Shown here in pieces: positions 2,246-24,766 of a stretch of DNA of 24,766 nt. Position 1 is the first letter of the stretch; each line of letters begins with the position of its first letter. The position numbers were made by a program, and so were the translations under genes. The notes beneath the pieces were generated by a model. The model worked only from the letters and a program-made list of their open reading frames with translations. It did no database searches and was not told the DNA's origin. The stretch lies in IMG/VR virus record IMGVR_UViG_3300047493_000068, positions 1 to 24,766 of that record. One strand, 5' to 3'. This stretch comes from a virus.

Positions 2246-2911
2246 ATGATAATCGTGGCGATTGGCAACCTGAAGGGTGGGGTCGGAAAGTCGACCTTGG
2301 CCGTCAACTTGGCCTGCGAGCTCGCGGCTCGCTGCACGGTTCGCCTCATCGATGCTGACGTTCAGGAGACGGCCACGGAATGGCTCGCAGGCGGCCGCCT
2401 GCCCATATCAGGCGAGGCTCTGCCGCTCGAGGATGAGCGCAAGGCGCCGATGTGGCTGCGGCGCGTGAGAGGGCAGGGGGCTGACCTGGTCGTCATCGAC
2501 CTGCCTCCGCAGACCGGAGCGTCCACGGCCGCGGCGCTCATGGTGGCGGACCTGTTCCTCATCCCCGTGGCGCCGTCTGGGCTCGACCTCCGGGCAGCGG
2601 TGAAGGCGCTGGACCTGCTGAAGGAAGCGCGAGAGGCGAGGGGAGGGGGCGAACCCAAGGCTCTCCTGGTGCCGTCCCGTGTCGATCGACGGACTGGCGC
2701 CGGACGCGAGATTGAGGCGGCCCTGCACGAAATGGGCGAGCCAGTAGGGCCGGCGATCGGCCTTCGGTCGGCCTTCATCGACAGCGCAACCTCGAGAGAA
2801 TGGGTCGGAGGCTTCGCGCCCCGGTCAGTTGGGCATCAAGAAATCCAGGCCTTGGCCGCGGTGGTGGATAGGCTGACACGGAAGAAGGTGGCGGAACATG
2901 GCGCAGCGTAG
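2246..2911 (+). CDS. parA: ParA-family partition ATPase (short, type Ib-like)
   Basis: This 221-residue deviant-Walker ATPase moves plasmid copies apart by forming dynamic ATP-bound patches on the nucleoid. The deviant Walker A motif KGGVGKST is at residues 10-17, an aspartate-rich segment LIDADVQ follows at 34-40, and the Walker B-like VVIDLPPQ is further on. It has no N-terminal helix-turn-helix extension, so it belongs with short ParA/ParF-type proteins rather than the long P1-type. I chose the ATG at 2246 because the P-loop then sits at the usual distance; an in-frame TTG at 2234 adds four residues. It overlaps the partner gene at 2898 by 14 bp, which suggests translational coupling. Upstream palindromes probably serve as operator and centromere. 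Confidence 0.92.
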   Translation: MIIVAIGNLKGGVGKSTLAVNLACELAARCTVRLIDADVQETATEWLAGGRLPISGEALPLEDERKAPMWLRRVRGQGADLVVIDLPPQTGASTAAALMVADLFLIPVAPSGLDLRAAVKALDLLKEAREARGGGEPKALLVPSRVDRRTGAGREIEAALHEMGEPVGPAIGLRSAFIDSATSREWVGGFAPRSVGHQEIQALAAVVDRLTRKKVAEHGAA

Positions 2912-3490: not shown

Positions 3491-4570
3491 TTACGCCCCA
3501 TTCCCTCGCGCCCCACCCCTTTCTCCTCCGATCTTGCGCCATCGCGCGCCGCGTCCACGACCGCTAACCTCAAGCCGACCTTCACGCTTGAGCTGCTCAA
3601 GAATAGCCTTGATCCAATCCCGGCTGACGTTCGGGCAAACCGTTTCGAGCTCTGAAATGCTGAAGCTCCCCAGCATCCGCTCGATGGCGGTCACGACGAT
3701 ATCAGTCTTGCTGCCGTGGCCGGTGGAAAGCTGGCCGATCCGGCTTTCAAACTCGCGATAGGCGGCGAGGATCGTGCCAAGCCAATAGTCGATCCATGGC
3801 ATGGGATCATGGCGATTCTCGTGCCATCCCTGCGAAGCGCGATAAAGCGTGTCGTAGTAGCTTTCCTTCGTCTGTTCGATCACCCGTTCAAGGCTGATGT
3901 AGCGGCCGATTTCATAGCCCTGGTGGTAGAGCGCCAGCACTGAAAGCAACCGCGCCATGCGACCATTGCCGTCGGCGAATGGATGAATGCACAGGAAATC
4001 GAGGACATAGAGCGCAACCAGAATGAGCGGCTCATACCGGCCATCTTTGAGGTTCTGCCTGAAAGCCTGATGCAGTTCCTGCATCGCACTTGGCGTCAGA
4101 TGCGGCTCTGTCGGTCGGAAACGGATGAAGCGAGTTCCGTCTGGTCTGACTTCCTCAATCTCGTTCTGGACAGGTTTCCACATGCCACCTGGCACGGTCC
4201 CGTATTGCATGAGGTCGCGATGAAATTGCAGGACAACACGCTCGCTGAAGGGAATGTCAGAAGCGGCGCCATGGATGGTGGCCAGCACATCGCGATAACC
4301 GGCAATCTCGGCTTCCGACCTGTTTTGTGGTGCCGTCTTCTCGCGAATCAGCGCCTCGATTCGGCCACGCGAAGCCGTTACGCCCTCGATCCGGTTTGAC
4401 GACTCGACGCTCTGAATCAACGCCACCTGGCGCAGATTTTCCAACTTCTCTGGCGCCTGGATACGGAAGAGGTCTTGCCGTCCTTTGTTCTCGCCAATCT
4501 GCCGGATGGTCTGAACAAGCGTCGGTGGCAGGACCAACTGGGCGAGAAAGTCGGGAGAGAATGACGACAT
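3491..4570 (-). CDS. fic: Fic-domain protein (probable AMP transferase) with built-in inhibitory motif
   Basis: This 359-residue Fic protein carries a complete active-site motif HPFADGNGRMAR (residues 196-207; catalytic His196). Family members transfer AMP or related groups from nucleotides to target proteins and often act as toxins or regulators. The N-terminal Fic_N-like region contains SNRIEG (residues 58-63), matching the S/T-x3-E-G/N inhibitory helix, so this is a class II Fic whose Glu62 should restrain its own active site. The C-terminal 90 residues look like a winged helix with a basic glycine-rich tail. It is last in a minus-strand run: XRE regulator, a 30-residue ORF, fic. The ATG at 4570 is 3 bp past the 30-residue ORF's stop. 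Base composition is lower in GC than its neighbours, hinting at separate acquisition. The target is unknown. Confidence 0.88.
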   Translation of the reverse strand: MSSFSPDFLAQLVLPPTLVQTIRQIGENKGRQDLFRIQAPEKLENLRQVALIQSVESSNRIEGVTASRGRIEALIREKTAPQNRSEAEIAGYRDVLATIHGAASDIPFSERVVLQFHRDLMQYGTVPGGMWKPVQNEIEEVRPDGTRFIRFRPTEPHLTPSAMQELHQAFRQNLKDGRYEPLILVALYVLDFLCIHPFADGNGRMARLLSVLALYHQGYEIGRYISLERVIEQTKESYYDTLYRASQGWHENRHDPMPWIDYWLGTILAAYREFESRIGQLSTGHGSKTDIVVTAIERMLGSFSISELETVCPNVSRDWIKAILEQLKREGRLEVSGRGRGARWRKIGGERGGARGNGA

Positions 4571-8172: not shown

Positions 8173-8646
8173 TCAGAGGGCGTCGGCTTTGGCCTCAGCC
8201 TGCAATGCTGACGCCAAGCCCTTCAGCCCGGCTTGCGCCTCGTTCCACAGATCATCGGGAATCAGCTCGCCACGCACCGTGATCAGCCTTTCACCCTCAA
8301 TCACGACATCCGCGCCCGCCGCACGGATACGGCGCAGTAGATCGGCGCCGGGCTCTACCAGCGGTGGGACTACGGGCGTCACCGGTGGGGCGGCCGACCG
8401 GCTCTCTTCTACCTCGGGGCGTCGCTTCAGCCTGACGCCGAGACCCCCACCATTGTCAGGGAGAAACTCGATGCCAGCCGCTTCAAGGGCTGCCTGCATC
8501 GCAGCCAGCGTCGACTGGATCGGAACTGCGCGTCCTCGTTCGAAGCGGCGGACCGTTGCCTCGCCTACAGCCGCGGCCGTCGCCAGAGTTTCCACCGACC
8601 AGTTTAGGGCACCGCGTGCCATCCGAGATTGCTCAGGTCCGATCAT
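8173..8646 (-). CDS. XRE-family transcriptional regulator (157 aa)
   Basis: The N-terminal Cro/C1 helix-turn-helix covers residues 4-60 (LNWSVETLATAAAVGEATVR), followed by EFLPDNGGGLGVR, the same tail as the regulator at 4663-4902. A proline-rich linker then leads to a C-terminal helical domain of about 60 residues that the smaller paralogue lacks. Its ATG overlaps the stop of the terminase-like gene, so it is second in a two-gene minus-strand operon. A perfect palindrome (8648-8664) lies immediately before its start, inside the upstream gene's coding end. It is probably an autoregulator. Confidence 0.83.
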   Translation of the reverse strand: MIGPEQSRMARGALNWSVETLATAAAVGEATVRRFERGRAVPIQSTLAAMQAALEAAGIEFLPDNGGGLGVRLKRRPEVEESRSAAPPVTPVVPPLVEPGADLLRRIRAAGADVVIEGERLITVRGELIPDDLWNEAQAGLKGLASALQAEAKADAL

Positions 8647-8885
8647 GTGACCGAAATACGGTCATTCTTCAATCGGTGCAACTTGATGAGGTATCCAGCC
8701 TCGCGCGCGCGGGCGCACTTGGCGCGGAAATCGGGGTCAGCATCCATCCACCCCTCGACGGTCCTTCGCCCAGGCATATGCTCGTCCTGGCAGATCCGCC
8801 GCATGCTCTCGCCACTCGCCAGCCGCTCGCAGATCTCCTCGGCAATTTCCGGGGAGTAAAGACTAGGGCGACCGCGCTTGGGCAT
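8643..8885 (-). CDS. Terminase small-subunit-like DNA-binding protein (80 aa, short)
   Basis: The N-terminus MPKRGRPSLYSPEIAEEICERL, with a following helix-turn-helix (GESMRRICQDEHMPGRRTVEGW) and DADPDFRAKCARARE, matches the DNA-recognition part of phage terminase small subunits. Typical members run to about 140-200 residues; this one stops at 80, before the oligomerisation region, and ends in the XRE gene's operator. GGAG lies 7 nt before the ATG. No large terminase, portal or capsid gene is present, so it may now be a DNA-binding regulator or a remnant. Alternatively it marks the packaging site for a helper phage. Confidence 0.68.
   Translation of the reverse strand: MPKRGRPSLYSPEIAEEICERLASGESMRRICQDEHMPGRRTVEGWMDADPDFRAKCARAREAGYLIKLHRLKNDRISVT
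8648..8664. promoter_or_regulatory. Operator-like palindrome at the XRE start
   Basis: TGACCG-N5-CGGTCA is perfect and lies 1 bp upstream of the regulator's start codon, within the last codons of the preceding gene. The position fits roadblock or autorepression by the XRE protein. Confidence 0.5.
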
Positions 8886-8924
8886 TGGCGTTCTCCGCAG
8901 CCATCGCGCACGCGCGCAAGGGGA

Positions 8925-8938
8925 TGTCCCGCGGGACA
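8925..8938. promoter_or_regulatory. Perfect 14-bp palindrome upstream of the terminase-like gene
   Basis: TGTCCCGCGGGACA is a perfect palindrome 40 bp upstream of the terminase-like gene. A related sequence (GTCCCGCGTGTCC) follows shortly after. It is an operator candidate; the binding protein is unknown. Confidence 0.4.
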
Positions 8939-9030
8939 CGACGCGGAAGTCCGAACCAAGTCCCGCGTGTCCGAGGCGTGAGGCGGGCTGAGGGCAGTGT
9001 GGTGCTGGCGGCGGGCGACCACCGCGTTCC

Positions 9031-9195
9031 CGGAACCTGTTCGTCAACCTCCACACAGGCGCCTCCATCAACCTCATCGTGCGGAAGCGGCAGCTTGGCG
9101 TTGCCGTGCTGATGAACGGCACCATCGTGACGACGAATAAAATTGGCGCTTTCGTTGCGGATTCGTGGCGCGTCAGGTTCCTTGTAAGTCATTGA
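9031..9195 (+). pseudogene. Orphan coding-like fragment without a start
   Basis: In frame from 9031, about 54 codons read as well-formed protein (NLFVNLHTGASINLIVRK, then VAVLMNGTIVTTNKIGAFVA, then DSWRVRFLVSH) ending in TGA at 9193-9195. The first 35 codons nearly all end in G or C. There is no start codon with a ribosome-binding site, and an in-frame TGA at 8989 limits the frame upstream. It looks like the 3' end of a lost gene. Family not recognised. Confidence 0.33.
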
Positions 9196-11411: not shown

Positions 11412-11713
11412 ACGCCCTCTATGACGGGTGCGGCGAGCCAATCTTCGCCGAACCGCTCCCGCCCGCGCGCTTTGCCGACACGGATCACTGCATAGTCACC
11501 TTCGATCGTTGGCAGCATCCGGTATGGGAAGGCGGTGGCATCGACCTGATCCTGCAGATCGAGGAGACGACAGAGCCTCTCCCACCGTACTATCTCGATC
11601 GTCTCTCGACCTGTCTGCGGTGCGGTGGCTTCATCGCGGTGCATGGCCCCGATGCTGAGGCCGTGGCTGAAGTGGTCGAGACAATCACTGCCGCTGCTGA
11701 GGTGACGCAGTGA
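11408..11713 (+). CDS. Hypothetical protein (101 aa), TTG start
   Basis: TTG at 11408 overlaps the previous stop (TTGA) and has GGAG 9 nt upstream. The protein begins MNALYDGCGEPIFAEPLPPA, has an acidic strand-rich centre (HCIVTFDRWQHPVWEGGGID), and contains CLRCGG followed by GFIAVHGPDAEA. The fold may be methyltransferase-like or a small Rossmann fragment, but this is a guess. It is coupled on both sides within the replication operon. Confidence 0.6.
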   Translation: MNALYDGCGEPIFAEPLPPARFADTDHCIVTFDRWQHPVWEGGGIDLILQIEETTEPLPPYYLDRLSTCLRCGGFIAVHGPDAEAVAEVVETITAAAEVTQ

Positions 11714-12813
11714 GCACATCTCAGCCCAGCATCGTGGCCGAACTGGTCGCGCGCTGCCATAGCAACCCGGCACCGCTCTCAGCCTGGGAACGCAAGTTCC
11801 TTGATGAGGCTGCCGAATGGGATCGGCCGCCCTCGCCGAGGCAGCTTGCGACGATGGAGCGGATCGCGAACCGTATTGCACCGTCCGAAATAGCGCTGAT
11901 GCTGGCGGAGCGCATGGAGGACGTGGCGATGGCGCTCCAGGGCGATCCGCCGACCTATCGGCACGGAAATCAGATCCGGTACGGCACCCACTTTTCCCTA
12001 TCGATTGAGGTCAGGGGGCAGAAGCGCGGAACGTGGTGCGCACATGACGATGACAAGAAAGGTGGAGACGCGCTCGGCCTTGTCGCTTACCTGCGCGGTC
12101 AGGGCGCGGCCGACGCAGTGCAGTGGGCGAAGCGTTTCCTCGGCATAGGCGATGGCGAGCCGTTGCCCCCGGTGTTGCCACGCGCAGCGAGACCCGAGCC
12201 AGAGGCTAAACCGACGCTTCCGCTGGCCCGCACCATGTGGGCCGAGGCCACATCGGCCGCCGGCACACTGGTGGAGCGCTATCTTCAGTCTCGCGGCCTG
12301 ACGCTGCCACTGTCGCCCGTCCTGCGGTTTCACCCGGCCTGCGCAAGGGGCAAGGAGCGGCTGCCGGCGATGGTCGCGCTCATGACCGATCCCGCTACGG
12401 CCGAGCCGGTGGGCGTGCATCGCACCTTTTTGCGCCCAGACGGCCTCGGAAAGGCTGAGGGCCAGGCGAAGATGATGCTCGGCGGCTCCGGCGTCGTCCG
12501 CCTCTCGCCCGATGACGAGGTGACCATCGGCCTGGGCCTGGCCGAAGGCATTGAGACGGCGCTCTCCGTCATGCAGGAGGCGGGCTGGTCGCCGGTTTGG
12601 GCATGCGGCAGCGCGGGCGCCATCTCCACCTTCCCCGCGCTGCCCGGCATCGAGGCCCTAACAATCTTCGCCGATGCCGATGCGAACGGCGCCGGCATCA
12701 AGGCCGCCGGGGCGTGCGCGGCCCGATGGGCGGAAGCCGGTCGGGAGGTCATCGTTCACTACCCGCGTGCTGGCGGGATGGACTGGAACGATGTCGCGCG
12801 GGGTGCCGCTTGA
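11710..12813 (+). CDS. Toprim-domain primase-like protein
   Basis: This 367-residue protein starts at GTG (11710), overlapping the previous stop. The middle (about residues 170-265) resembles the region preceding Toprim in phage and plasmid primases (DUF7146-like), with LVERYLQSRGL and the LRFHPAC segment. The C-terminal Toprim domain (Toprim_3-like) shows LAEGIETALSVM with Glu279 and IFADADANGAG with Asp322 and Asp324, the metal-binding residues that support phosphoryl transfer. It ends with GGMDWNDV, typical of these primases. There is a possible zinc-free DNA-binding N-terminus with HFSLSIEVRGQKRGTWCAHD. It is followed directly by a P-loop ATPase, which together make a primase-helicase pair for starting phage-type DNA replication. 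Confidence 0.82.
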   Translation: MSTSQPSIVAELVARCHSNPAPLSAWERKFLDEAAEWDRPPSPRQLATMERIANRIAPSEIALMLAERMEDVAMALQGDPPTYRHGNQIRYGTHFSLSIEVRGQKRGTWCAHDDDKKGGDALGLVAYLRGQGAADAVQWAKRFLGIGDGEPLPPVLPRAARPEPEAKPTLPLARTMWAEATSAAGTLVERYLQSRGLTLPLSPVLRFHPACARGKERLPAMVALMTDPATAEPVGVHRTFLRPDGLGKAEGQAKMMLGGSGVVRLSPDDEVTIGLGLAEGIETALSVMQEAGWSPVWACGSAGAISTFPALPGIEALTIFADADANGAGIKAAGACAARWAEAGREVIVHYPRAGGMDWNDVARGAA

Positions 12814-14054
12814 TGGACCGCGGCAGCCCCGAGGAATTCTTCCGCCAGCACGGGACCAGCGAGAGGTTCGTGCCGCAGGACGAGGCACCTGACGCCGATG
12901 CATCACCACGCCGTGGCCGGGCAAGGGGGCAAGGAGAGACACCGAAACCTCCGCCGCCCCCGATCGAGCCGAGGCTCGTCTTCCCGAGCTCGCTCCGTGG
13001 CCTGCCCATCCCCGAAATGGAGTGGATCGTCGACGGCTGGATACCCATCGGCGACGTGACGCTGCTCTACGGTGATGGGGGCGTGGGCAAGACCTTGCTC
13101 GCTCAGGAGCTGATGGCATCCACGGCGATCGGCGCACCATGGTGCACGCTGCCAGCGCGCCGCTGCAAGTCCCTGGGCGTTTTCTGCGAAGATGACGACG
13201 ATGAGCTGCACCGTCGTCAGGATAGCATCCAGCGCTTTCTAGGCACCGACTTTCACGACGACCGCATGGACAACATGTGCTGGTGGACGCGCAAGGGTGA
13301 GAACAACCTCCTCTGCACCTTCGACTATGAGGGCGTCATCCAGCTCACCCCGCTATATTTCGCTATCCTGGATGCGGCAAAGGATATGGGCGCGCGACTG
13401 GTCATCCTCGACACGGCGGCAGACCTCTTCGGCGGCAATGAAAACGACCGCGGCCAAGTCCGCCAGTTCATGGGCTCTCTGTCCCGCCTCGCCATGGCCA
13501 TCGGGGGCGCCGTCGTCATGTGCGCCCACCCCAGCAAATCGGGTATGGCGGTTGGCGGAAGCATGGACAGCGGCTCAACCGGCTGGAGCAATTCCGCCCG
13601 GTCCCGCCTCTCCCTGGAACGCCTCAAGGCCGATGGCGAAGAGCCGGTCGATACCAACGAGCGCATCCTGACGAAGCGGAAGGCCAACCGATCAAGCATC
13701 GGCGAGGTTATCAAGCTCCGCTGGCACGATGGTGTCATAGCCTCGCCACAGGTGTCGGGGACCGCCTCCTCGACCGTGCAGGCGGATGCTTTGGATGCGG
13801 ACAAGACGTTCCTCGCCATCCTGAACCGGTGCACGGGGCAAGCAGTCTACGTTACTCATTCGCGAAACGCGGGCAACTTTGCACCCAAAGTCTTCGCCAA
13901 ACAGCCCGATCGGTCCGGCTTCACGATCAGGGAATTTGATGCGGCGATGCAGCGGCTCATCGCGAATAACGTCATCCGGGTTGAGACTTACAGGAGTGCC
14001 AATCGTCACTTTCGCGACCGCCTGGCCGTGGTCACCAAGGACCACGACGATTAA
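12813..14054 (+). CDS. RepA/RecA-type P-loop ATPase, probable replicative helicase
   Basis: This 413-residue AAA_25/RepA-like ATPase has Walker A GDGGVGKT (residues 87-94) and Walker B-like LVILD (196-200). A later conserved stretch VVMCAHPSKSG fits the sensor region of RSF1010 RepA-like hexameric helicases. The first 55 residues are proline-rich and likely disordered. The last 110 residues form an added domain that may bind DNA (FTIREFDAAMQRLIANNVIR looks like a winged helix). The start overlaps the primase stop as TGATG. It would unwind DNA at the origin together with the Toprim protein. It is the final gene of the replication operon. Confidence 0.85.
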   Translation: MDRGSPEEFFRQHGTSERFVPQDEAPDADASPRRGRARGQGETPKPPPPPIEPRLVFPSSLRGLPIPEMEWIVDGWIPIGDVTLLYGDGGVGKTLLAQELMASTAIGAPWCTLPARRCKSLGVFCEDDDDELHRRQDSIQRFLGTDFHDDRMDNMCWWTRKGENNLLCTFDYEGVIQLTPLYFAILDAAKDMGARLVILDTAADLFGGNENDRGQVRQFMGSLSRLAMAIGGAVVMCAHPSKSGMAVGGSMDSGSTGWSNSARSRLSLERLKADGEEPVDTNERILTKRKANRSSIGEVIKLRWHDGVIASPQVSGTASSTVQADALDADKTFLAILNRCTGQAVYVTHSRNAGNFAPKVFAKQPDRSGFTIREFDAAMQRLIANNVIRVETYRSANRHFRDRLAVVTKDHDD

Positions 14055-14285
14055 AATCGGGCGCACGATTACCATCCAGAGAGAGCGCGTTGACCCTGTC
14101 TATCGTGATGGGTTCTGAAATATTACGGCAGTATTATGAGCAATTGGGGATTTTTCTGCGATCAATCTAAGCGTCGATATGGCGAAAAACCTAGTGCAGA
14201 ACGGTAACTGTCTTGTCGTTACTACCAAAATAAACGAAAATGTCGTTAGCAGCATCGTGTTATTATCACTTTTGAGGGTTTTTAT
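14055..14285 (+). other. AT-richer noncoding gap between replication and virion genes
   Basis: This 231-bp stretch is visibly richer in A and T than either neighbour and has no supported ORF. It contains AATATTACGGCAGTATTAT, a run ending TTATTATCAC, and GAGGG at 14274-14278, which serves the next start. It is the natural place for a promoter of the large virion genes, and possibly for a phage-specific promoter, but I cannot assign -35 and -10 boxes with confidence. Confidence 0.45.
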
Positions 14286-14570
14286 GTGATGATTAGCTTC
14301 AAGGTTAATCGGGCAGCGAACAACAACAAGAGGAACACCGGCTCCGCGCTGCAAGCTCGGGAAAACCGAGATTCTGCGGCCGAAGTCGACACGCTGATGA
14401 CGCTGAACGATGCTGTGCTGAGGGCCTATGGTTACACCTTGGGCACGAGCGAGACGGCTCAAGCGCGGCGATACACGATCGCAGACCGTGAGGCTGCCGC
14501 GGCGGCGCTGCTCGATCGTGTTGCGTCGATGGGCATCGGGCGGTCCGGCGACACACCGCGTGTGTCGTAA
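14286..14570 (+). CDS. Small hypothetical protein (94 aa)
   Basis: The GTG at 14286 has GAGGG 7 nt upstream; an ATG follows immediately at 14289. The protein begins with a basic asparagine-rich segment (FKVNRAANNNKRN) and continues as an alanine-rich helical domain. It stands 41 bp before the 717-residue virion gene and is probably co-transcribed with it. Function unknown; it may be a head-completion or scaffolding-like small protein, but there is no direct evidence. Confidence 0.55.
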   Translation: MMISFKVNRAANNNKRNTGSALQARENRDSAAEVDTLMTLNDAVLRAYGYTLGTSETAQARRYTIADREAAAAALLDRVASMGIGRSGDTPRVS

Positions 14571-14610
14571 TGAGAGACCATCTCGCGCCAGGTGTTGAGG
14601 GCGCCTACTG

Positions 14611-16764
14611 ATGGCCGCCATCCCTGACACAATCGTCCTGCCGTCCGTCACGCCGCGGATCGACGCGCCCGATACGCAACAGGACGTGCAGCCTCTTGCG
14701 GCGGAAGGGCTGCAAAAGATCGGCGATGCTTCACTCAAGACCGGCCAGTTTTTTGGCCAGCTTCAGACCACAGACGTGCTGAATCAGGCTGGCAGCCAAG
14801 CTGACGCGGTTCTCGACCACGTCATGCAGCTCCGGGGTCAGGATGCGTTGACCGCAATCCCCGCCGCGCAGAAGCAGGTTCAAGACATCTACAGCAAAGC
14901 TCGCTCTCAATTAGGTTCGCTTGACCAGATCGGACAATTTGACCAGACGGCTGGTCAGATGGTCACGCGCTATTATGGGCGGTATTTTGCGGAAAAGGGG
15001 CAGGAAGCTCAGGTTGAATATGCCGGCGCCACCAATCAGCAGCTCGTGGATACTTCCAATCATCAATCATACGCGGCGACGACCTTAAGCGATCCCGCGG
15101 CGTCGGATGCGAGCTTTCAAGATTCGCTCAAAACCGGCAGATCGGCAGCCGTTCAGGCAACCCAGCTCGCAGGAAATGAGAAGGACCCTGCAATCGTCAC
15201 CGACGCGGTGCGCCAAAGCGATAGCAGGCAGGCGTCGATTTTTATTGAGGGGTGGTTGAACAAAAACCCAACCGTTGGTGCGCAGTTCCTTCAGAAATAC
15301 GCGCCGATGCTTGACCCACAAGCATACCAGACGCTGTACCGGGCCGCGCGAAGCGCCACGTTGCCGATGGACTCCAATGCCATTGCGGACGGGGTTCTCG
15401 GCATTGCCGGGCCGCAGGCGACCAGCGGCGGAACTGCCGCGACGGGTGGTCAGCGTCCGGTAAACAACCCCGGCAATCTTCGGGTGCCAGGATCAAAGAC
15501 TGACTTTCAGCAATTCCCAACCCAGCAGGCCGGGGTCCAAGCGCTTCAGGATCAGCTTATCCTTGATAATAAGCCGGTCGCGCAAGGTGGCCATGGCTTA
15601 ACGACGCTGGCCCAGATCATAGGCGATCCAGTCCATGGATGGGCGCCTTCCACCGAGAACAACACTGCGGCGTATATTGCAAACGTCTCGTCGTGGACGG
15701 GTATTGACCCAAACAAACCGATCGACCTTTCTGACCCAGCAACACGTAATGCCGTGACTGCCGCGATCATCCGGCAAGAGGGTGGGAGCAGAAGCGCCGG
15801 CGGCGCCCAAGCGCTTCAGGAGATGGGTGCAAATTTGCCGGCTCTGATGGACCAAGCCGGCCAGCAGGCGATGAAGCTGCATCCGGACGATGCGGACAAC
15901 GCCTATCAATCGGCGTCCTATGCGGTCTATCGCAAATACCAATCGATGGTTGTGTCCAATGACGCGGCACAAAAGGCCAACCTGTTGACCGTGGCCAATG
16001 CGGTGACGCAAGGCAAGTTCACCGATCCGGATCAGATTTTTAAGGCGGGCGGTGCGACTGCGCAAGCCTGGGTCAACTTGGATCCTGACGCCCGAGCTAC
16101 GGTGTTCACGCTGATGAAGCACAATCTGCCGGGTGCCGATGTCGTTTGGTCGCCGCAGGCGCAGTCCATGAGCGATCAGCTTGTTGGGCTTTCGATCACC
16201 GATCCGGCGGCGTTTCGGAAGGTCAACCTGCTTGATCCGCATTACCTTGATGTGATGCCGCACGACATGATCAGCGCTCTGTCCAATCGGCAGACGGATG
16301 CGATGGCGACCGCGTCGAGAGGGGTAAGTGATGACGATATTCGCTCGGCGCTTTCCTTCGTTTCGCCGCTGGCAATTTCTGGTGGCATCAATCCCAAGGC
16401 GATAGAGGGCACGTCGGATTACCAGACGTATCAGCAGTTCGTGGGGGCCTTCACGGCCGATGTGAGCGCCTATTTTGATCAGCACAGCCGGATGCCGGAC
16501 GCCGCGACGCAACAGCAAATTGCACGCCGCCTTCTGATCAAGGGAACGGTCGCCGGAACAGGCAGCATGTTCTTCGGCCCAAAGTCCGAATATCTGTTCG
16601 AGGCCGAAGGTCAGGGCGGCAATTTGCCGGGCTTTCAGGCAATCATACCGCCGGATCAGCTATCGGCGATCAATACGGCCTACAGCAAGATGTACGGGCA
16701 CCCGCCAGACATGGCGACCGCGACGCAGCTGTATCTTGAGTCTCTGGCGCCCAAACCCCAATGA
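14611..16764 (+). CDS. Phage internal virion/ejection-type protein with lysozyme-like segment
   Basis: This 717-residue protein resembles internal virion or structural proteins of podovirus-like phages. Residues about 284-392 (PVNNPGNLR, then FQQFPTQQAGVQAL, then HGWAPSTENNTAAYI and SSWTGIDPNKPID) match the peptidoglycan-cleaving, lysozyme/transglycosylase-like segment often found in virion-associated proteins that open the cell wall during DNA entry. The first 250 residues are glutamine- and alanine-rich helices. The remainder is helical with many aspartates. No signal peptide or membrane segment is present, as expected for a protein packaged in a particle. Its stop overlaps the start of the 2301-residue gene (ATGA), so the two are made together. 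No catalytic residue can be assigned by eye. Confidence 0.72.
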   Translation: MAAIPDTIVLPSVTPRIDAPDTQQDVQPLAAEGLQKIGDASLKTGQFFGQLQTTDVLNQAGSQADAVLDHVMQLRGQDALTAIPAAQKQVQDIYSKARSQLGSLDQIGQFDQTAGQMVTRYYGRYFAEKGQEAQVEYAGATNQQLVDTSNHQSYAATTLSDPAASDASFQDSLKTGRSAAVQATQLAGNEKDPAIVTDAVRQSDSRQASIFIEGWLNKNPTVGAQFLQKYAPMLDPQAYQTLYRAARSATLPMDSNAIADGVLGIAGPQATSGGTAATGGQRPVNNPGNLRVPGSKTDFQQFPTQQAGVQALQDQLILDNKPVAQGGHGLTTLAQIIGDPVHGWAPSTENNTAAYIANVSSWTGIDPNKPIDLSDPATRNAVTAAIIRQEGGSRSAGGAQALQEMGANLPALMDQAGQQAMKLHPDDADNAYQSASYAVYRKYQSMVVSNDAAQKANLLTVANAVTQGKFTDPDQIFKAGGATAQAWVNLDPDARATVFTLMKHNLPGADVVWSPQAQSMSDQLVGLSITDPAAFRKVNLLDPHYLDVMPHDMISALSNRQTDAMATASRGVSDDDIRSALSFVSPLAISGGINPKAIEGTSDYQTYQQFVGAFTADVSAYFDQHSRMPDAATQQQIARRLLIKGTVAGTGSMFFGPKSEYLFEAEGQGGNLPGFQAIIPPDQLSAINTAYSKMYGHPPDMATATQLYLESLAPKPQ

Positions 16765-19700
16765 GCGGAAACGAAACCGATCTGCCTGACGTGGAGCCGG
16801 AAGCGCTTGTGCCGTCGGCCGGTTCTGGGGTGCCGTCGCCCGCGCCGGCTGCGGCGTCCGGTGGTGGTCTGCCGCCAAACATCACACCCGGGGATGCCGA
16901 AGAAGCGGGCTCTGCGGGTGCCACGCCGCCGCCGCCGCCGGCTAAACCGCAGGTGCAGCCAGCCGCACCGCCAAATGCCTTGGCCGCGTCGGGTGCGGGA
17001 GTGCCGCTACCGACCAGCCCTGACTTTTGGACTGCGCAGATCGCGCGCATGGCGGACCAGCAACGCGGTCAGGCGACATCGAACCTGGTCAGTGCGCAGG
17101 ACGTGGATCCTGACAAGGCGGCAGCTGCCCGCACCTTGGCGCCGTTGCTTGGACTGCCGGCAGTTGCCATGGAGGACAATCCATCATTCTGGCAGCAGCA
17201 GGCGGATTTGCGGGTTGCGCGGGGTGTCATGAGCACCGATCAGCAATTGCAGAAATGGCTGGCATCGGATCCAGGCAACGCCAAGGTTGCGCAAGGCGAC
17301 GTTCCGCAGCTTGGGCTGATCGGGCGGCTGTGGAACGGGTTCAGTGAAGGCTTCACGCAGTCAATGTTGGAGCAGCGCATCGGCGAGCTTGGGTTTTCGG
17401 AGCAGACTGGAACTGCTTCCCCAAGGCAGATAAACCTTCTCCAAACGTTCAAAGAGCAGGCCGCCGCGCAGCCCAAAGAAAAGGGCACGGCCGCGCATAT
17501 CGGTGGATTTTTGGGTGGCACTGCTCAGATGTTTGCCAACGCCCTGCCGGAAGCCGCTACGGGTGCCGCGTACGGCGGCGTCACCGGGGCTTTTGGTGGC
17601 GCTACGGCCGGTGGTGTCGGCGCGATCCCTGGCGCGATCGCGGGCGCGATTGGTGGCGGAGTGTTTGGCCTTACCGCCGGCATCGCTGGGCAAAGCGCCA
17701 TTGAAACTTCCGGTCAGACGTATGACACGCTCAACGATGCGAAGGACAAGCTCGGTCGGCCAATTCCGGAGTCCACCAAGCAGGCGGCCTCAGTGCTGTC
17801 TGGCGTGGTCACGGGCGCTTTGGCGCTGGCTGGCGGCAAAGTGCTCGGCGCGCCGGCCAAGGCGCTGGTAGCGCCTTTCGTGCGCGATGTTGCGGTTGAG
17901 GCGGCGACGCGCCCGACATTGGCGCGAGCGCTCGGCACCTTCGCCAAAAGCGCAGTCAAAGCCGGCGTGACGGGTGCGCTGGTCAACGGCGGGATGACGG
18001 CGACGCAGTTGATTGCGCCGCAGGTTGCGGAGGCTGTCACGTCGCCGGATTTCGAAACGGCCGCCAACGATCCCGAGATGCGCCAGCAGCTGATAAACCA
18101 GATTGTCGACTCCATGGAGCAGGGCGCGCTCGCTTTTCCGCTCATGGAATTGCCCATGCGCGGGGTGAGCCTCTATGCCGATGTGGTTCGGGCTCGCGCT
18201 GCCGCCCGCAGCGCCGGCCAATGGGCGCAGATGAGCGATGCTGCGGGCGCCAGCAAAACCCGCCAGCGCGCGCCGGATGCTTTTTCGGCGCTCATGCAGA
18301 TGCACGCTAGCGCCGGGGACGTGGACAGCATCTATGTCCCTGCCGACCGTGTGGCTGAACTCTATCAGGGCATGCAGACGCGGCCTGGCGATGCGCAAGA
18401 CCCGTTTGCCTTCGTGCCGGACATGCAGGAGCAGATGGACCAGGGTTTGCTGACCGGCGGGGATGTGCAGATCCCGACCGCGCAGTTTGTCGCGCACCTT
18501 GCCGGAACGGACATTGAGCGCAACTTGCGTCCTGATATCCGTTTTGCCCCGGATGGCTTTACGTTGCGTGAGGCTTTGGAGCTGCAAAACCATCCGCCGG
18601 CCGATCTGACTGGCTTGACGGATGAAGATGCCGGCGATGTGGGCGTCGATCATCGGGGCGCGGCAATCCAAGCGGTCAAGGCCGACATCACCGATCAACT
18701 GCGCCGCGCGGGGTTCACCCCAAACGTTGCCGAGCAATACGCCACGCTGATCGCAGCGCGGTATGGTGCGCGCGGTGATGATTTTGCTCAGTCGCCTCTG
18801 GATCTGTATCGACAGGAAGGCCTGCAGGTGCTGCGGGAGGATCAGCCGCGCGTTGGTCCCGCGACCTATAGCGGGATTGACGAGGCCATAGACAGCTTGC
18901 GGCGCGGCGACAGGCAGCCAAGCGACCGGCAACTCTATGGTCCCAGTCTGCTTGAATACCTGACCGGCGGCTCATCGGGCCAGGGCATGAACCGCGCTCA
19001 TGAGCTTTCCGAAGGCGGCCGGCGCGAAGCGGCCGGCGGTATCCAAGATACGGGCGGCGATATTGCCGCGATGGGCGGAAACGACTGGCACCGTGGCCAG
19101 CCGGGTCGGCGCAAGCTGATCAACCCGGAGGGCATGCGCATTGAGGAAGCAGCTCAGCGGGCCCATGACGCAGGTTATTTCCCGGACCATCCGGACGTGC
19201 CGGACATCAATGAGTTTTTGTCGGCGTTGCAGGATGAGCTGAACGGGCGGCAGCGCTATGTGCCGCCGGAAGGTGAGGCGCTGAAACGCGAGCAAGCGCG
19301 GGCCATTTCCGAGCAGCTGCGGCAGTTTTTGGATGAGCGCGGCATCAACATCAAGACCGCTACCAATGCCGAAATCAAGCGCGCGCTTGATGAGGCTCAA
19401 CAGGGCGGCGGCGTGCGTCGTGAAGGCATTGCCGAGCGTGCTGGTGAGCCCCCCGCCGCCGGCGCGCAGCGGCCGTCTGCGCCTCAAGCGCCGGCTGCCA
19501 CCAGGGCTGCGCCTCGCGTCATCACGCTCAAGGACCTGAAGGCGTTGAACCTGACCGGCGGCGCAAACGAGGAAGTGGACGGAGAAGGCATGGCGGCCGA
19601 TTTTGCGCGCATCATCAGGGAGGCGAACGAACGCGGCGAGACGGTAACGTGGCGTGAAGACGGCGAGCGGCCGCAGGTGTTGCACACCGACTCGGCGGGC

Positions 19701-22700
19701 CGGGTGCGCAATGATAAGGGCCTGCCCGTTGGCTGGATGGGCGCACTGACGCACCCGACTACGCGGCTTGAGATTACGCCGCGGGATGTCACGCTCAACC
19801 AGCCGGATGGCAGCTTTGGTATGCGGGGGTCGATCACGCTCGGCAGCGGTGAGCGGATCGTGCGTCTGTTCAAAGGTTCCGACCGTTCGACGTTTTTGCA
19901 CGAGATGGGCCATCAGTTCCTCGACGAGCTTCTGCGTGATGCGATGCGCGATGACGCGCCGGATGATCTTAAGGCCGACGCCGCAACGGTTCGGAAATGG
20001 CTCGGCCTAAAAGATGGCGAGATGCCGGGCGTCGATGGCCACGAGAAGTTCGCCACCGGGTTTGAAACCTACCTCATGGAGGGCAAAGCGCCGTCCGTTG
20101 AGCTTCAAACGGCTTTCCAGAAGTTTGCGGCTTGGCTGACGCGCATCTATCGAACAATTGTCGCCATCGGCTCTCCGATTACGCCGCAAATCCGCGGTGT
20201 CATGGATCGGCTGCTTGCTACCGATGACGCGATTGCCGAGGCAAAGCGCGGTTTGAATTTGAACCCGGTTTTCAAAACGGCAGAAGATGCCGGCATGACT
20301 AAAGGCGAGTTTGCCGCCTACACGGCCATTATACGCAAAGCGCAGGCTCAGGCCCATGATCAGGTGCTCAAACGCACGATGCGGACGGAAGCGCTCAAGG
20401 ACAAGCTGGCGTGGACAGCGGAGTCCGATGCTGTCCGACCTGAGATTGAACAACAGGTGAAAAGCCGGCCAGCGCTGCAAGCGTGGCATCTTCTGGCCTA
20501 CGGCCGCGACATCCTTGATCCTGACCGCGAGGTGGCAGCCACCAAGCTTGATCTGGCGGCAACGCGCAATATCCTGGGCGCGTCATTCCCGCGTCTGCCG
20601 CGCGGTTTGACGGCGAAGGAGGGCGGCATTCACCCCGATGCGCTGGCCCCGGCCTTTGGCTACGAGTCCGGCGAAGCGATGCTGCGTGACATCGTGAACG
20701 AAAATGTGGGCCGCGAGGACGCTGCGGTGCAAATGGGCCGCGCTCTGCCGCTGAACAAGTACATCGCGGCCCTGGTGGATCAGGGCATTGATGAGCAGCT
20801 GGAACAGTTGTTCGGGGATCCTTTGACCGATGGCACGGTGGAGGAAACCGCGCTTGCTGCCGCGCATAATAAGGGGCAGCGCGACGTTTTAGCCGCCGAG
20901 ATGCGCCAACTCGGAAAACAGGCTGGTCAGGAACCACCCTATACGGTGCAGCAGGTGACGCAGTGGGTTCGTGCGTCGCTCGCCGACACGCCGATCAAAC
21001 ACGCCATTAACGTCGCAAAATACCGAAAAGCTGAGGCGCAAGCCGGACTTGAGACGCAGCGTTTTCTGCTGGCTCGTAAGCCAATTGATGCTTTCAAGGC
21101 CAAGCAGCGCCAGATGATTGCTCACGTGTTTGCGACCGAAGCCGAGCGGCTTCAGAAAGATTGGCAAATTACGACGACCTATTGGCTAAACGTGGCCAAG
21201 GCGGCGACGCGGTCTGGGACTGCCCAGCCATTTGTTGATCAAACGCATGGCATCCTTGAACGGCTTGGGATCAATGTTCGGCGCGACCCGGGCGAGCTAT
21301 CGCGGGCTCTTGCGGGTAAGCCCTTGGCAGATTTCCAAGATGAGCAAAACCGACTTGGCGTCGATCTTGTAATTGCGGATTTCCTGCGCGATCAGGCATT
21401 TCGACAGCACTACCAGACCTTGACATCGGACCAATTTCAAGCCGCGCGCGATGCGGTCAATTCATTGTTGTACGTCGGCCGCCGGCAGAATTGGGCCGAC
21501 GTGGACGGCCGCCGCGTGGCCTTGAATGAGCTGGCGGATCAGATCGCGGATTCGACTGCCATGCTGCCGAATGTGGTGCGGCCCACCGCTTACATCACGC
21601 CGGGCGCCGTCGAAGGTGGGATGCGCGCTGCCAAGGATCTGCTCGCGAATGGTTTGGGCGGGTTGCGCATGGTGGAACATTTGCTGGTGCAGCTCGACGG
21701 CGGCAAACCGGGGCCGCTTCATGCCGCCCTGTTCGCGCCGATGAAGCGTGCGGCCGAGGTAAAGCGTGGGTTCATTGAGCTAAAAAACAGCCTCCTGAAA
21801 GAAGCGCTCGATGCGATGCCGGCCGACTACAAGGCCACGCTCAAGAACTTGGTTGAGGTACCCGGTCTGACCGACCCAAAGACCGGCAAAAACATTGTCC
21901 TGACCCGTGACAATTTGCTGGCCTTGGCGATGAACATCGGCAACGCCGGAGAGGATTCTAACCTCGAAAAGCTTGCCGCCGGCTTTGGCTGGGAACCTGA
22001 AGCCATCATTCCTGCGCTTAATGAGGTCATGACCAAGACCGACTTTGATTTTGTGCAACGTGTGGGCGACCTTTACGAGCGGTTCCGCGATCCGCTCGAC
22101 CAGATGAGCCGTGAAATGACGGGCGTTGGCCTAAAGTTCGTAGAGCCAACCCCGTTCTCGACCCAGTTTGGCGATTATCGCGGTTGGTATTTCCCGATCA
22201 TTTATGACCGGTTCGAAAACCCAGACGTGTTCATGAAAGAGGACCCGTCCAGCCCCTTTGGGGGGAGCCAGTACTTCCGTGCCACCACAAGGTCAGGCAG
22301 CACCATAGCGCGCACCGGATACAAGGGTCGGCTGGAGTTTGATTTGCGCAACGTCGCGACCAGGATCGACCAGACTTTGCACGATATCGCTTTCCGCCGC
22401 GCTGTGTCCGATGCCTATAAAGTGCTGACCCATAAGCGCATCCGGCAAACCATCATCGACAAGGCTGGTCAGCATTCGTACGATTACCTCAACGACTGGC
22501 TGCGTTCCGTCGCTCGCAGTTCGAATGTCGATGACAAGGCGGTTCAGGGTCTAAACCGGGTGATGCGCTATTTCAGGAGCGGGCTTGGCTCGACCTATAT
22601 CGCCTTCAACCCGATCACGGCATTGCTGCATGGGCCAACCGCATTTTTGCACGGTATGGGCGAGGTGGGGATAAAATACTGGACGGGCGCCGCGCGCGAT

Positions 22701-23666
22701 CTTATGGGCTCGCTGTTTTCGTCGGGAGAGTCGCAAAAATTCGTCCAGGACAACTCTTATGAGGTGAGGACATACACGCAGCACCTTGGCGAGCAGTCAG
22801 CTCAGAACATGCGTCGGTTGCTTGCTCAGGATACTTTGCTCGCTAAAGCGCGATCCAAGGGCGAGGTGCTCGGCGACTACGCACTGAGCAAAATGCTAAA
22901 TATGTCGGCGCATGTGGTCTTCTTGGCGCGCTATCGGCAGGCGATGGACGAAGGCATGACTAGCGCCGAGGCCGCGGCTGAGGGCGACCGCGCGGTGCGC
23001 TTCGCGCATGGCGGAAAAGACACGATGGACCAAGCGGCGCTCTTCCGCGCGAACAATGAGTTCGTGCGCAGCATGGTTCAGTTCGGCAGCTTCTTCAACA
23101 CGATGTTCAACCGATCGGTCGATATCGTCAATACTGGCGCGCGTGGCGTGCGCTCGTATCGGGCTGGCGATGTAAAGGATGCTCGGCGCGATTTTGCCGA
23201 CGTGATGGGCAAGGCGTTCACTTATTGGTTCCTGACCTCGGCGCTCGGTGCTGGCGTGCGCGGATATATCCAGGGACAAAAGCCTCAGGATGAAAGCTGG
23301 CCGGCCTACTATGCTGAGATGTTCGGCCTCGACATGACATCCATGGTGCCGGAATTGGAGCAGACGGCATCGCTCATGTTCGGCGTGCACAGAAGCACCG
23401 TTTCAGGAACTCCGGTGACGCAGGCGTTTGAAGAACTGGGCGGTGCGATACGGAATATGTATCACTTGGCTGAGGGCATTCCGATGTCAAAGCGCTGGCT
23501 CCAAAACGATATTGAGGCCGTTGGGACGTTCACCCATCTGCCGGGCGGCCTCGTGATTGGCCGCGCCGCCCAGTCCGTGCTCGATGATCTCGACGGCGAC
23601 GTTGACCCGCAAGGGTTCACTGGATTCGTGAGAGGCCTGCTCTTTGGGCCACCGAAGGGCAGCTAG
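16761..23666 (+). CDS. Giant phage polyvalent/ejection protein with zincin and LPD38-like regions (2301 aa)
   Basis: This is a very large protein of the phage polyvalent type, which is packaged in or injected with phage or conjugative DNA. Residues 1-85 are proline- and alanine-rich. Residues 246-312 and 344-372 are glycine-rich, repetitive and hydrophobic (GAIAGAIGGGVFGLTAGIAG), a pattern seen in segments that insert into membranes. Residues 1047-1051 read HEMGH, the zinc-binding motif of zincin metallopeptidases, with Glu1095 or Glu1102 as a candidate third ligand. Long helical stretches follow. The last 500 residues (around FRSGLGSTYIAFNPITALLH and VQFGSFFNTMFNRSVDIVN) resemble the large polyvalent-associated domain LPD38. 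Its start overlaps the preceding virion gene. The likely role is to enter the new cell with the DNA, cross the envelope and cleave host protein. The family call is by pattern; domain edges are approximate. Confidence 0.76.
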   Translation: MSGNETDLPDVEPEALVPSAGSGVPSPAPAAASGGGLPPNITPGDAEEAGSAGATPPPPPAKPQVQPAAPPNALAASGAGVPLPTSPDFWTAQIARMADQQRGQATSNLVSAQDVDPDKAAAARTLAPLLGLPAVAMEDNPSFWQQQADLRVARGVMSTDQQLQKWLASDPGNAKVAQGDVPQLGLIGRLWNGFSEGFTQSMLEQRIGELGFSEQTGTASPRQINLLQTFKEQAAAQPKEKGTAAHIGGFLGGTAQMFANALPEAATGAAYGGVTGAFGGATAGGVGAIPGAIAGAIGGGVFGLTAGIAGQSAIETSGQTYDTLNDAKDKLGRPIPESTKQAASVLSGVVTGALALAGGKVLGAPAKALVAPFVRDVAVEAATRPTLARALGTFAKSAVKAGVTGALVNGGMTATQLIAPQVAEAVTSPDFETAANDPEMRQQLINQIVDSMEQGALAFPLMELPMRGVSLYADVVRARAAARSAGQWAQMSDAAGASKTRQRAPDAFSALMQMHASAGDVDSIYVPADRVAELYQGMQTRPGDAQDPFAFVPDMQEQMDQGLLTGGDVQIPTAQFVAHLAGTDIERNLRPDIRFAPDGFTLREALELQNHPPADLTGLTDEDAGDVGVDHRGAAIQAVKADITDQLRRAGFTPNVAEQYATLIAARYGARGDDFAQSPLDLYRQEGLQVLREDQPRVGPATYSGIDEAIDSLRRGDRQPSDRQLYGPSLLEYLTGGSSGQGMNRAHELSEGGRREAAGGIQDTGGDIAAMGGNDWHRGQPGRRKLINPEGMRIEEAAQRAHDAGYFPDHPDVPDINEFLSALQDELNGRQRYVPPEGEALKREQARAISEQLRQFLDERGINIKTATNAEIKRALDEAQQGGGVRREGIAERAGEPPAAGAQRPSAPQAPAATRAAPRVITLKDLKALNLTGGANEEVDGEGMAADFARIIREANERGETVTWREDGERPQVLHTDSAGRVRNDKGLPVGWMGALTHPTTRLEITPRDVTLNQPDGSFGMRGSITLGSGERIVRLFKGSDRSTFLHEMGHQFLDELLRDAMRDDAPDDLKADAATVRKWLGLKDGEMPGVDGHEKFATGFETYLMEGKAPSVELQTAFQKFAAWLTRIYRTIVAIGSPITPQIRGVMDRLLATDDAIAEAKRGLNLNPVFKTAEDAGMTKGEFAAYTAIIRKAQAQAHDQVLKRTMRTEALKDKLAWTAESDAVRPEIEQQVKSRPALQAWHLLAYGRDILDPDREVAATKLDLAATRNILGASFPRLPRGLTAKEGGIHPDALAPAFGYESGEAMLRDIVNENVGREDAAVQMGRALPLNKYIAALVDQGIDEQLEQLFGDPLTDGTVEETALAAAHNKGQRDVLAAEMRQLGKQAGQEPPYTVQQVTQWVRASLADTPIKHAINVAKYRKAEAQAGLETQRFLLARKPIDAFKAKQRQMIAHVFATEAERLQKDWQITTTYWLNVAKAATRSGTAQPFVDQTHGILERLGINVRRDPGELSRALAGKPLADFQDEQNRLGVDLVIADFLRDQAFRQHYQTLTSDQFQAARDAVNSLLYVGRRQNWADVDGRRVALNELADQIADSTAMLPNVVRPTAYITPGAVEGGMRAAKDLLANGLGGLRMVEHLLVQLDGGKPGPLHAALFAPMKRAAEVKRGFIELKNSLLKEALDAMPADYKATLKNLVEVPGLTDPKTGKNIVLTRDNLLALAMNIGNAGEDSNLEKLAAGFGWEPEAIIPALNEVMTKTDFDFVQRVGDLYERFRDPLDQMSREMTGVGLKFVEPTPFSTQFGDYRGWYFPIIYDRFENPDVFMKEDPSSPFGGSQYFRATTRSGSTIARTGYKGRLEFDLRNVATRIDQTLHDIAFRRAVSDAYKVLTHKRIRQTIIDKAGQHSYDYLNDWLRSVARSSNVDDKAVQGLNRVMRYFRSGLGSTYIAFNPITALLHGPTAFLHGMGEVGIKYWTGAARDLMGSLFSSGESQKFVQDNSYEVRTYTQHLGEQSAQNMRRLLAQDTLLAKARSKGEVLGDYALSKMLNMSAHVVFLARYRQAMDEGMTSAEAAAEGDRAVRFAHGGKDTMDQAALFRANNEFVRSMVQFGSFFNTMFNRSVDIVNTGARGVRSYRAGDVKDARRDFADVMGKAFTYWFLTSALGAGVRGYIQGQKPQDESWPAYYAEMFGLDMTSMVPELEQTASLMFGVHRSTVSGTPVTQAFEELGGAIRNMYHLAEGIPMSKRWLQNDIEAVGTFTHLPGGLVIGRAAQSVLDDLDGDVDPQGFTGFVRGLLFGPPKGS

Positions 23667-23770
23667 GCCTGGGGCGTCATGATGCTCAGACCAGATCAGC
23701 CGCTATGGTCCAACGAACGCGCCGATATTCGCTACAACTGTTGCAGACTCATATTCACCAAGCGGGATTA

Positions 23771-23989
23771 ATGGAGATGGCGGAAAGCGATTGGCTGCGA
23801 CCAAAACAAGCGGCGAACTACCTGGCAAATCTCGGCTGCTTTTTTAGCCCCAGGACGCTGTCGAATCTCCGCAGCAACAACAATGCCGGGAAGGGGCCGC
23901 CGTTTGTCCGGTCGGGCTCGAAAACGATCCGCTATCTCAAGTCTGATCTGGAAGAGTGGGCACGGAAACAAGTGGTGAGGATCGAGTGA
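23771..23989 (+). CDS. Excisionase/AlpA-like helix-turn-helix protein (72 aa)
   Basis: The ATG at 23771 is preferred, with GGGAT at short distance; an earlier ATG at 23705 lacks a ribosome-binding site. The protein reads SDWLRPKQAANYLANLG, then FFSPRTLSNLRSNN, then GPPFVRSGSKTIRYLKSDLEEWA. This is the classic helix-turn-helix plus wing of excisionase and AlpA-like proteins (HTH_17 type), in which YLKSDLEEW is the conserved last helix. It may steer the tyrosine recombinase toward excision or act as a transcription switch. It follows the giant gene by about 100 bp. Confidence 0.77.
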   Translation: MEMAESDWLRPKQAANYLANLGCFFSPRTLSNLRSNNNAGKGPPFVRSGSKTIRYLKSDLEEWARKQVVRIE

Positions 23990-24051: not shown

Positions 24052-24455
24052 CTACCCGCCCGTTCGGACTCTGGTGACACCCACCAGCCGGCGCTCAGGA
24101 ACGGGCGGGGCTGATGGAAATAGCTTTAGGCCGGCGTCGCTCGCCTCAAGGATAGCCTCAGGATAAGCGGCCAGGGCCAGCGCGAGCGGCTCCTTGAACT
24201 TGGCCTTGAACTGCCGAACGTGCTGGTAGCCGCCGCCGAACTGGTCGTGCAGCGCTTTCCATGTGATCGCCGTCGGCTTGGACAGCTGGTGCAGGCGGTA
24301 GGCCAGCCACACGTAGATATCCAATGCCATGCTGCGGTGCCCGATCTCTCGGATGGCCGCCTCGCGGACGGGCAACGGATGGTCGATCAGGCTCTGGAAG
24401 AAGCCCTCGTCCAGCCTGACGGCTTCGCGCCAGAATTGGAGCTGGTCGGTGTCCC
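24052..24455 (-). pseudogene. Truncated RepA C-terminal remnant
   Basis: About 134 residues match the C-terminal half of RepA: GFFQSLIDHPLPVRE, then SMALDIYVWLAYRLHQL, then ITWKALHDQFGGGYQ, ending in a proline-rich tail. They align with RepA residues about 185-305 but differ at many positions, so this is an old relative and not a recent duplicate. The frame stays open to about 24624, but that upstream part looks noncoding and its only far starts are TTG or GTG inside the DnaA box. The N-terminal domain is missing. It is probably a dead initiator from an earlier replicon; a shortened regulator is possible. Confidence 0.68.
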
Positions 24456-24614
24456 GGCTGGGCAGGATGGGGGGTCGGCGCACGATTTGTCCAGGTTGCC
24501 GCATCGCGGGCTGACAGTGGTGGTCCGGAGGTTCTCGGATGGAGCCAAGTTGCCAAACTAAGCTTGATTGGCGTGCGGATTGCGGTGAGCCGCCCTCTGG
24601 GCGCGATCTTGGAG

Positions 24615-24623
24615 TTATCCACA
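24615..24623 (+). promoter_or_regulatory. DnaA box
   Basis: TTATCCACA is a perfect consensus DnaA box. It lies beside the iteron cluster, as expected in a plasmid origin. Confidence 0.75.
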
Positions 24624-24648
24624 ACCCCTACCTCCCAACTACCGGAAA

Positions 24649-24672
24649 GAGTCTATCGGTGAGTCTATAGGT
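24649..24672 (+). repeat. Two tandem 12-bp repeats in the origin
   Basis: GAGTCTATCGGT and GAGTCTATAGGT are adjacent copies differing at one base. They are AT-richer than the flanking iterons and may help form the unwinding region. Confidence 0.55.
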
Positions 24673-24673
24673 T

Positions 24674-24737
24674 GGGGGGGTGATCCGCCGCACCTAGAGG
24701 GGGGTGATCCGCCGAACCAGGGGGGGGTGATCCGCCG
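24674..24737 (+). repeat. Origin iterons, copies 1-3 (G-run plus TGATCCGCCG)
   Basis: Copies of TGATCCGCCG preceded by 6-8 G residues have their TGATCC at 24681, 24705 and 24728, so the steps are 24 and 23 bp. A fourth is at 34-52 across the join. With the DnaA box and the tandem 12-mers they form a compact origin next to repA. RepA is the expected binder. Confidence 0.75.
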
Positions 24738-24766
24738 TGCATAACTCGCTTCGTCCACACCTTGGA

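Follow-up and report, generated by a model that had tools for sequence, protein, structure and literature searches.

Satellites remodel capsids and redirect packaging. Podoviruses are devoid of tape measure; in T7-like phages, its place is taken by a conduit of internal virion proteins. Besides their role in delivery, injected phage proteins carry anti-defence and host-modifying domains.

The PLE satellites of Vibrio cholerae assemble chimeric tails with a tape measure that they encode themselves (2026 Nature paper, PMC12987554), and tmp genes were also noted in cf-PICIs (PMC12987554). The element described here is a virus record of 24,766 bp (hereafter the window, i.e., the whole stretch of DNA that was analysed). 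Like a PLE, it is a headless element encoding a genome-delivery protein of the particle that it would use. However, PLEs are chromosomal and their tape measure belongs to a contractile tail and has a proven function, whereas the window is a plasmid with podoviral ejection proteins of putative function. By analogy, it could be the podoviral counterpart of the PLE tape-measure satellites.

The window also shares an integrase, an AlpA-like HTH protein, a Toprim_3 primase with a helicase and the lack of head genes with AH14b (PMC4936722) and the P4 group. However, no encoded virion protein was found in the particles of AH14b, whereas the window carries two virion-type genes and plasmid replication. 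Loss of phage genes by phage-plasmids has been described for P1-like elements (PMC10879196). Like the window, the resulting plasmids and the complete relative pACI-6db8 combine some virion genes of phages with a plasmid replicon; the window differs in keeping the ejection pair alone and in having a helicase of integrated-element type. The cf-PICI-like IMG/VR elements L007, L073, L076 and L136 have a related helicase, an integrase and a partial structural set, but they keep TerL, capsid and protease, none of which is kept by the window. Together with L085 and L119, they are elements of 10-13 kb from several hosts that carry an integrase, a related helicase, TerL, capsid and protease, and resemble capsid-forming PICIs.

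In Pseudomonas phage AF, as in Cobetia phage Carin1, one run of genes downstream of the connector, capsid and tail tubes encodes internal virion proteins (IVPs), a structural lysozyme of ~700 aa and a giant protein of >2200 aa. AF and the viruses like Bordetella phage BPP-1 share with the window the order IVP-A, lysozyme, giant protein (~2200 aa) and the homology of the giant protein. In these phages, the cassette follows the connector, capsid and tail-tube genes, whereas in the window those are absent and IVP-A is truncated.

The Circular Plasmid and Its Replicon

The ends of the window share a direct overlap of 32 bp, which falls inside an array of iterons found by repeat search (GGGGGGTGATCCGCCG; 24672-24766, running on at 1-57 over the circle joint). 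The Roseomonas mucosa plasmid pTT14-9, whose array lies directly after repA, has an identical RepA-iteron layout, unbroken across the equivalent of this joint. The overlap, the pTT14-9 layout and a RepA of Roseomonas type indicate a circular plasmid from an Acetobacteraceae host. This replication initiator (57-989, minus strand; RepA_C, Pfam PF04796, 1.1e-17) shares 80% aa identity with RepA of R. mucosa pTT14-9 and 77-78% with those of R. acroporae and R. rosea. A second RepA (24052-24624, minus strand), from another lineage (36% identity to pTT14-9 RepA), is N-terminally truncated, matching positions 107-169 only of the RepA_C profile, and is a remnant of a second replicon.

Besides RepA and the iterons, plasmid replication and partition genes include that of a ParA partition ATPase (2246-2911, plus strand; phrog_164, 3e-38; PF13614). 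The backbone also encodes a tyrosine recombinase/integrase (1156-2115, plus strand; Pfam PF00589, PF02899; phrog_1), a Fic/DOC protein (3491-4570, minus strand; PF02661, 6e-15) and an AlpA/excisionase-like HTH_17 protein (23705-23989, plus strand; PF12728, 1e-6; phrog_66). The latter is also found in G001, a complete podovirus described below (55% to G001 19264-19509). Two related XRE-type regulators are encoded on the plasmid (4663-4902 and 8173-8646, both minus strand), and their relatives occur in or near elements G089, G220, G167 and G448.

No relaxase, coupling protein, secretion or transfer gene was seen among the window ORFs scanned with Pfam/PHROG. No tRNA or Rfam feature was found in the window, and promoter and terminator scans gave nothing above chance. 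A plasmid near-identity search with the window returned matches limited to RepA and short pieces, with no sister plasmid, and no second circle with this backbone was found in IMG/VR with IVP-C, IVP-B, the helicase and RepA as queries.

Lack of Head, Packaging, Tail and Lysis Genes

The first-pass annotation saw neither a large terminase nor a portal, capsid, tail or lysis gene. None turned up in the window when 20 ORFs were searched with Pfam/PHROG, when every protein of a complete relative was used as a tblastn query, or when iterative HMMs were run for TerL, portal, capsid and tail tubes. As none of the essential phage functions (head, packaging, tail, lysis) was found, the window is not classed as a phage-plasmid. 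Its sole packaging gene encodes a truncated Sf6-type small terminase (8643-9125, minus strand; PF20901, 1.2e-19; phrog_1482) reduced to the DNA-binding half: it covers positions 1-55 of the 106 of the PF20901 profile, and it was also compared with the intact TerS of a complete podovirus, G428. This gene had initially been overlooked, as had an acetyltransferase remnant and a truncated IVP-A (see below). No non-coding site common to the window and G001 was found beyond the HTH and IVP regions, in a comparison that a short pac or cos site would escape.

The Ejection Genes and Their Edges

The two large genes of the window encode IVP-B (14611-16764, plus strand; phrog_873/2276), a protein of 717 aa with a lysozyme-like segment, and IVP-C (16761-23666, plus strand; phrog_9880, 1e-255; LPD22), a large polyvalent protein of 2301 aa with a zincin. 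Both frames are open, as first described, with a 4-bp stop/start overlap. In the smaller protein, for which a wall-cleaving segment had been proposed, residues 213-464 match PHROG endolysin/head-and-packaging and tape-measure families, and the lysozyme segment matches Gp29 of PDB 9vvp (1.8e-6). The zincin motif announced in the larger one is HEMGH at residue 1047; IVP-C gave no match in PDB. The very large size of this protein, its LPD22, its HEMGH zincin and the adjoining IVP-B are features that define large polyvalent proteins (PMC5512222). Furthermore, homology and the gene order of complete podoviruses identify IVP-B and IVP-C as podoviral ejection proteins; judging from their relatives, both are predicted to be located in the virion and injected.

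The block had been described as starting at 14286, but this is the start of a separate ORF of 94 aa and not of the 717-aa gene, which starts at 14611. This ORF is an N-terminally truncated IVP-A (14286-14570, plus strand; 49% to G001 37547-37822, E 9e-23) that retains the C-terminal half only, versus 198 aa in G001, the intact gene being phrog_418. Ahead of it lies a frameshifted and shortened acetyltransferase remnant (14053-14265, plus strand; tblastn 40% over 73 aa, E 1e-8, and alignment); an intact acetyltransferase gene precedes IVP-A in G001. On the left, the helicase stop codon marks the start of the phage homology; on the right, it stops 5 bp beyond the IVP-C stop, and the fibre and lysis genes are gone exactly after this stop. 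The joints leave the helicase, IVP-B and IVP-C whole, while the acetyltransferase and IVP-A are ruined.

Complete Podoviruses Carrying the Cassette

G001 (IMGVR_UViG_3300047175_000060) is a complete podovirus of 60,140 bp. Its ejection run (37.3-46.9 kb) has the same order as in the window and is preceded by TerL, portal, protease, capsid and tail genes. Window positions 14301-23671 align to it in two pieces with 94% and 87% identity. The 2.9 kb at ~14.6-17.5 kb are essentially 100% identical with rare single differences, and beyond ~17.5 kb identity alternates between 75-85% and 97-100%. IVP-B shares 99.9% aa identity with its G001 counterpart and IVP-C ~92-93%, one replaced segment excepted. 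This segment (residues ~884-1010; window 19397-19790), which sits just ahead of the zincin, has no nucleotide similarity to G001, while its flanks are 83-97% identical. In the divergent parts of IVP-C, dN/dS between the window and G001 is ~0.06-0.15, with ~0.1-0.15 in most of them. The selection proposed earlier for both genes is shown for the gene family (dN/dS ~0.1); the plasmid copy may be recently imported, and such an import instead of selection on the plasmid can explain the intactness of IVP-B and IVP-C.

The remnants of the acetyltransferase and IVP-A are about 70-75% (nucleotides) or 49% (amino acids) like G001, i.e., far less than IVP-B. This suggests that these remnants are older or come from another phage, and that exchange with a G001-like phage has renewed IVP-B and IVP-C. 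Judging from their sequence identity, the plasmid and G001 were presumably co-resident. A simple deletion of G001 can be rejected as the origin of the window, since the helicase belongs to another clade and the plasmid backbone differs.

G001 also carries Cas9 (1021 aa), Cas1, Cas2 and a CRISPR array at 55329-60140 plus 1-280 (loci L018 and L016). The array (at least 11 repeats, 66-bp period) runs across the two contig ends in a single orientation. This suggests that G001 is a circular phage-plasmid equipped with a type II CRISPR-Cas of its own. The stray repeat cores found at 1526 and 55226 are candidate tracrRNA anti-repeats, and one of two TnpB/OrfB-type genes (L017 14480-15616, minus strand; L018 13841-15028, plus strand) lies just before Cas9. 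The G001 spacers gave no match to the window.

The second complete podovirus, G428, carries primase, helicase, TerS, TerL, portal, MCP, tails and IVP-A-B-C in this order on one strand. Inspection of neighbouring genes, a check recommended by the first-pass annotation, revealed tail-tube or capsid genes upstream in every one of 57 other IMG/VR loci in which IVP-C is preceded by 7 kb or more, a count in which elements without head genes are under-represented since IMG/VR picks contigs by viral genes. Together with the gene order of G001, this indicates that the block derives from a full phage and was joined via old deletion scars. It had been pointed out that relatives could all carry full modules and that this copy could be a single assembly deletion: the relatives do carry them, but the edges look like biological scars and not like one clean assembly deletion.

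The Primase-Helicase and Related Integrated Elements

Upstream of the phage block, the window encodes a Toprim_3 primase (11710-12813, plus strand; PF13362, 7e-15; PF23639, 2e-28; 51% to element G099) and an AAA_25 replicative helicase (12813-14054, plus strand; PF13481, 7e-31). In the helicase tree, the latter groups with the Acetobacteraceae elements G089, G056 and G099 (local support 0.911), apart from the phages G001 and G428. Its identity reaches 44-48% with integrated elements without a full head set (44% for G099) versus 36% with G428.

G099 (C41, 12952-30855; L049/L050) spans 17.9 kb between 50-bp repeats at tRNA-Arg and carries an integrase, a primase, a helicase, a small terminase and one tape-measure protein of 532 aa with a lytic transglycosylase domain. 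G089 and G349 are bounded by 44- and 48-bp repeats at tRNA-Glu. In two elements of the helicase clade, G099 and G056, a tape-measure protein occupies the corresponding slot, which in G056 follows the helicase. TerL, portal and capsid were not found in G099, G220 and G167 among ORFs of at least 110 aa judged plausible (all Pfam matches; best 25 of 36 PHROG families), the ORF choice in comparison elements being mechanical. Among the matches listed for these three elements, there is one small terminase (phrog_57), apparently the Nu1-like gene of G099. G056, which also carries a prohead protease, may be an incomplete or decayed prophage, and G242 combines a tape-measure protein with TerS and TerL. 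The group therefore grades into incomplete prophages and capsid-forming satellites.

Among bacterial genomes, 2 of 397 Acetobacteraceae and 1 of 385 Alphaproteobacteria yielded relatives of IVP-C, not counting two weak short matches; a species-genome scan with IVP-C patterns gave no relative, while the family-level protein search gave two. No head gene was found near the three bacterial IVP-C-type loci (G220, G167, G448), which are not clean evidence since IS21 copies interrupt G220 and G448 is truncated. No head or tail gene is annotated on a 14.4-kb E. coli plasmid (NZ_CP061753.1, L138) that encodes a DUF927 protein, an AAA ATPase, a pair of recombinases and a lytic transglycosylase of 826 aa with relationship to the IVP-B segment.

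Origin and Possible Role of the Ejection Genes

Very probably, the window is an Acetobacteraceae plasmid that fuses a Roseomonas-type replicon (RepA and iterons, with ParA), a primase-helicase from the family of integrated elements without full head set, and the IVP-B plus IVP-C genes of a BPP-1/AF-like podovirus. This fusion would have occurred via deletions that wrecked the acetyltransferase and IVP-A and kept the helicase, IVP-B and IVP-C whole. As far as its sequence tells, this element is real and is either a satellite-like hybrid replicon or a decaying phage-plasmid derivative, two readings that are nearly equal in probability.

The decay reading, according to which a phage-plasmid, or a phage that had fused with plasmids, lost its head, tail, fibre and lysis genes and kept the ejection pair as a functionless leftover, was the null case of the first-pass annotation and has gained support from the 57 viral relatives with head or tail genes and from the scars of the left edge; it falls somewhat short of an even chance. 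The window reads like G428, from primase-helicase to IVP-A-B-C on one strand, with ~26 kb missing. The deletion scars at 14.05-14.57 kb, the truncated TerS and the second broken RepA fit such a decay, related complete phage-plasmids exist (Acinetobacter pACI-6db8), and loss of phage genes turns phage-plasmids into plasmids (PMC10879196). However, 9.1 kb of coding sequence stay open beside broken neighbours, the helicase is nearer to the integrated elements (44-48%) than to G428 (36%) or G001, and the loss of fibre and lysis genes falls precisely after the IVP-C stop. A misjoin in assembly between a plasmid contig and a podovirus piece from the same sample would explain why identity to G001 switches between blocks of 100% and of 75-85%, as in assembled strain mixtures, and why there is one contig only. 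It is nevertheless improbable, since the error would have had to create two independent, old-looking scars on the left (the frameshifted acetyltransferase and the truncated IVP-A, ~70-75% nt or 49% aa like G001) and, on the right, to end only 5 bp beyond a stop codon; moreover, the circle closes in an iteron array known from the sequenced plasmid pTT14-9. Polyvalent proteins serve phages and conjugative elements alike (PMC5512222), hence the earlier suggestion that the two proteins act in plasmid transfer or against competitors. This role is very improbable: the two proteins have the domains and the gene order of podoviral ejection proteins, and the transfer function was rejected because no relaxase, coupling protein, secretion or transfer gene was seen among the ORFs scanned.

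The other main reading, that the plasmid spreads as a satellite-like passenger, comes close to the decay reading in probability. It is favoured by edges that spare exactly the helicase, IVP-B and IVP-C, by the helicase clade without full head set and by the recent exchange with a complete phage whose 717-aa gene is near-identical. The window lacks the full virion gene set and carries an integrase, a Toprim_3 primase, an AAA_25 helicase and an HTH_17 protein, as satellites do. The PLE tape-measure precedent, the three bacterial IVP-C-type loci without head genes and the lack of relaxase or conjugation genes also count for it. The truncation of TerS and IVP-A, the single metagenomic contig, the lack of a sister plasmid and the presence of head or tail genes in 57/57 viral relatives count against it. 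The satellite idea of the first-pass annotation is thus partly sustained.

As a passenger, the plasmid would respond to infection by, or induction of, a resident G001-like podovirus and then replicate with its own primase-helicase. The helper would supply the capsid, tail, TerL, IVP-A and lysis. The plasmid-encoded IVP-B (wall-cutting) and IVP-C (polyvalent, zincin-processed) would enter the virion, replacing the proteins of the helper or beside them, and be injected together with the DNA; the resulting ejection apparatus would be chimeric. That the plasmid is such a satellite, supplying its own podoviral ejection proteins to helper virions with chimeric injection apparatus, is possible but rather doubtful. 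G099-like tRNA-integrated elements of Acetobacteraceae would then be siphoviral sisters of this plasmid satellite. In open-licence papers, text searches turned up no satellite described as carrying podoviral ejection proteins.

Biological Significance

If the ejection pair is a functionless leftover, the circle would be a clean example of a phage fragment persisting on a plasmid. If the plasmid is a satellite, injected proteins would be swappable by the passenger too, so that helper and satellite particles would deliver different effectors. This would also provide a route to spotting satellites, for example in Acetobacteraceae, as att-flanked headless elements that carry one genome-delivery gene.
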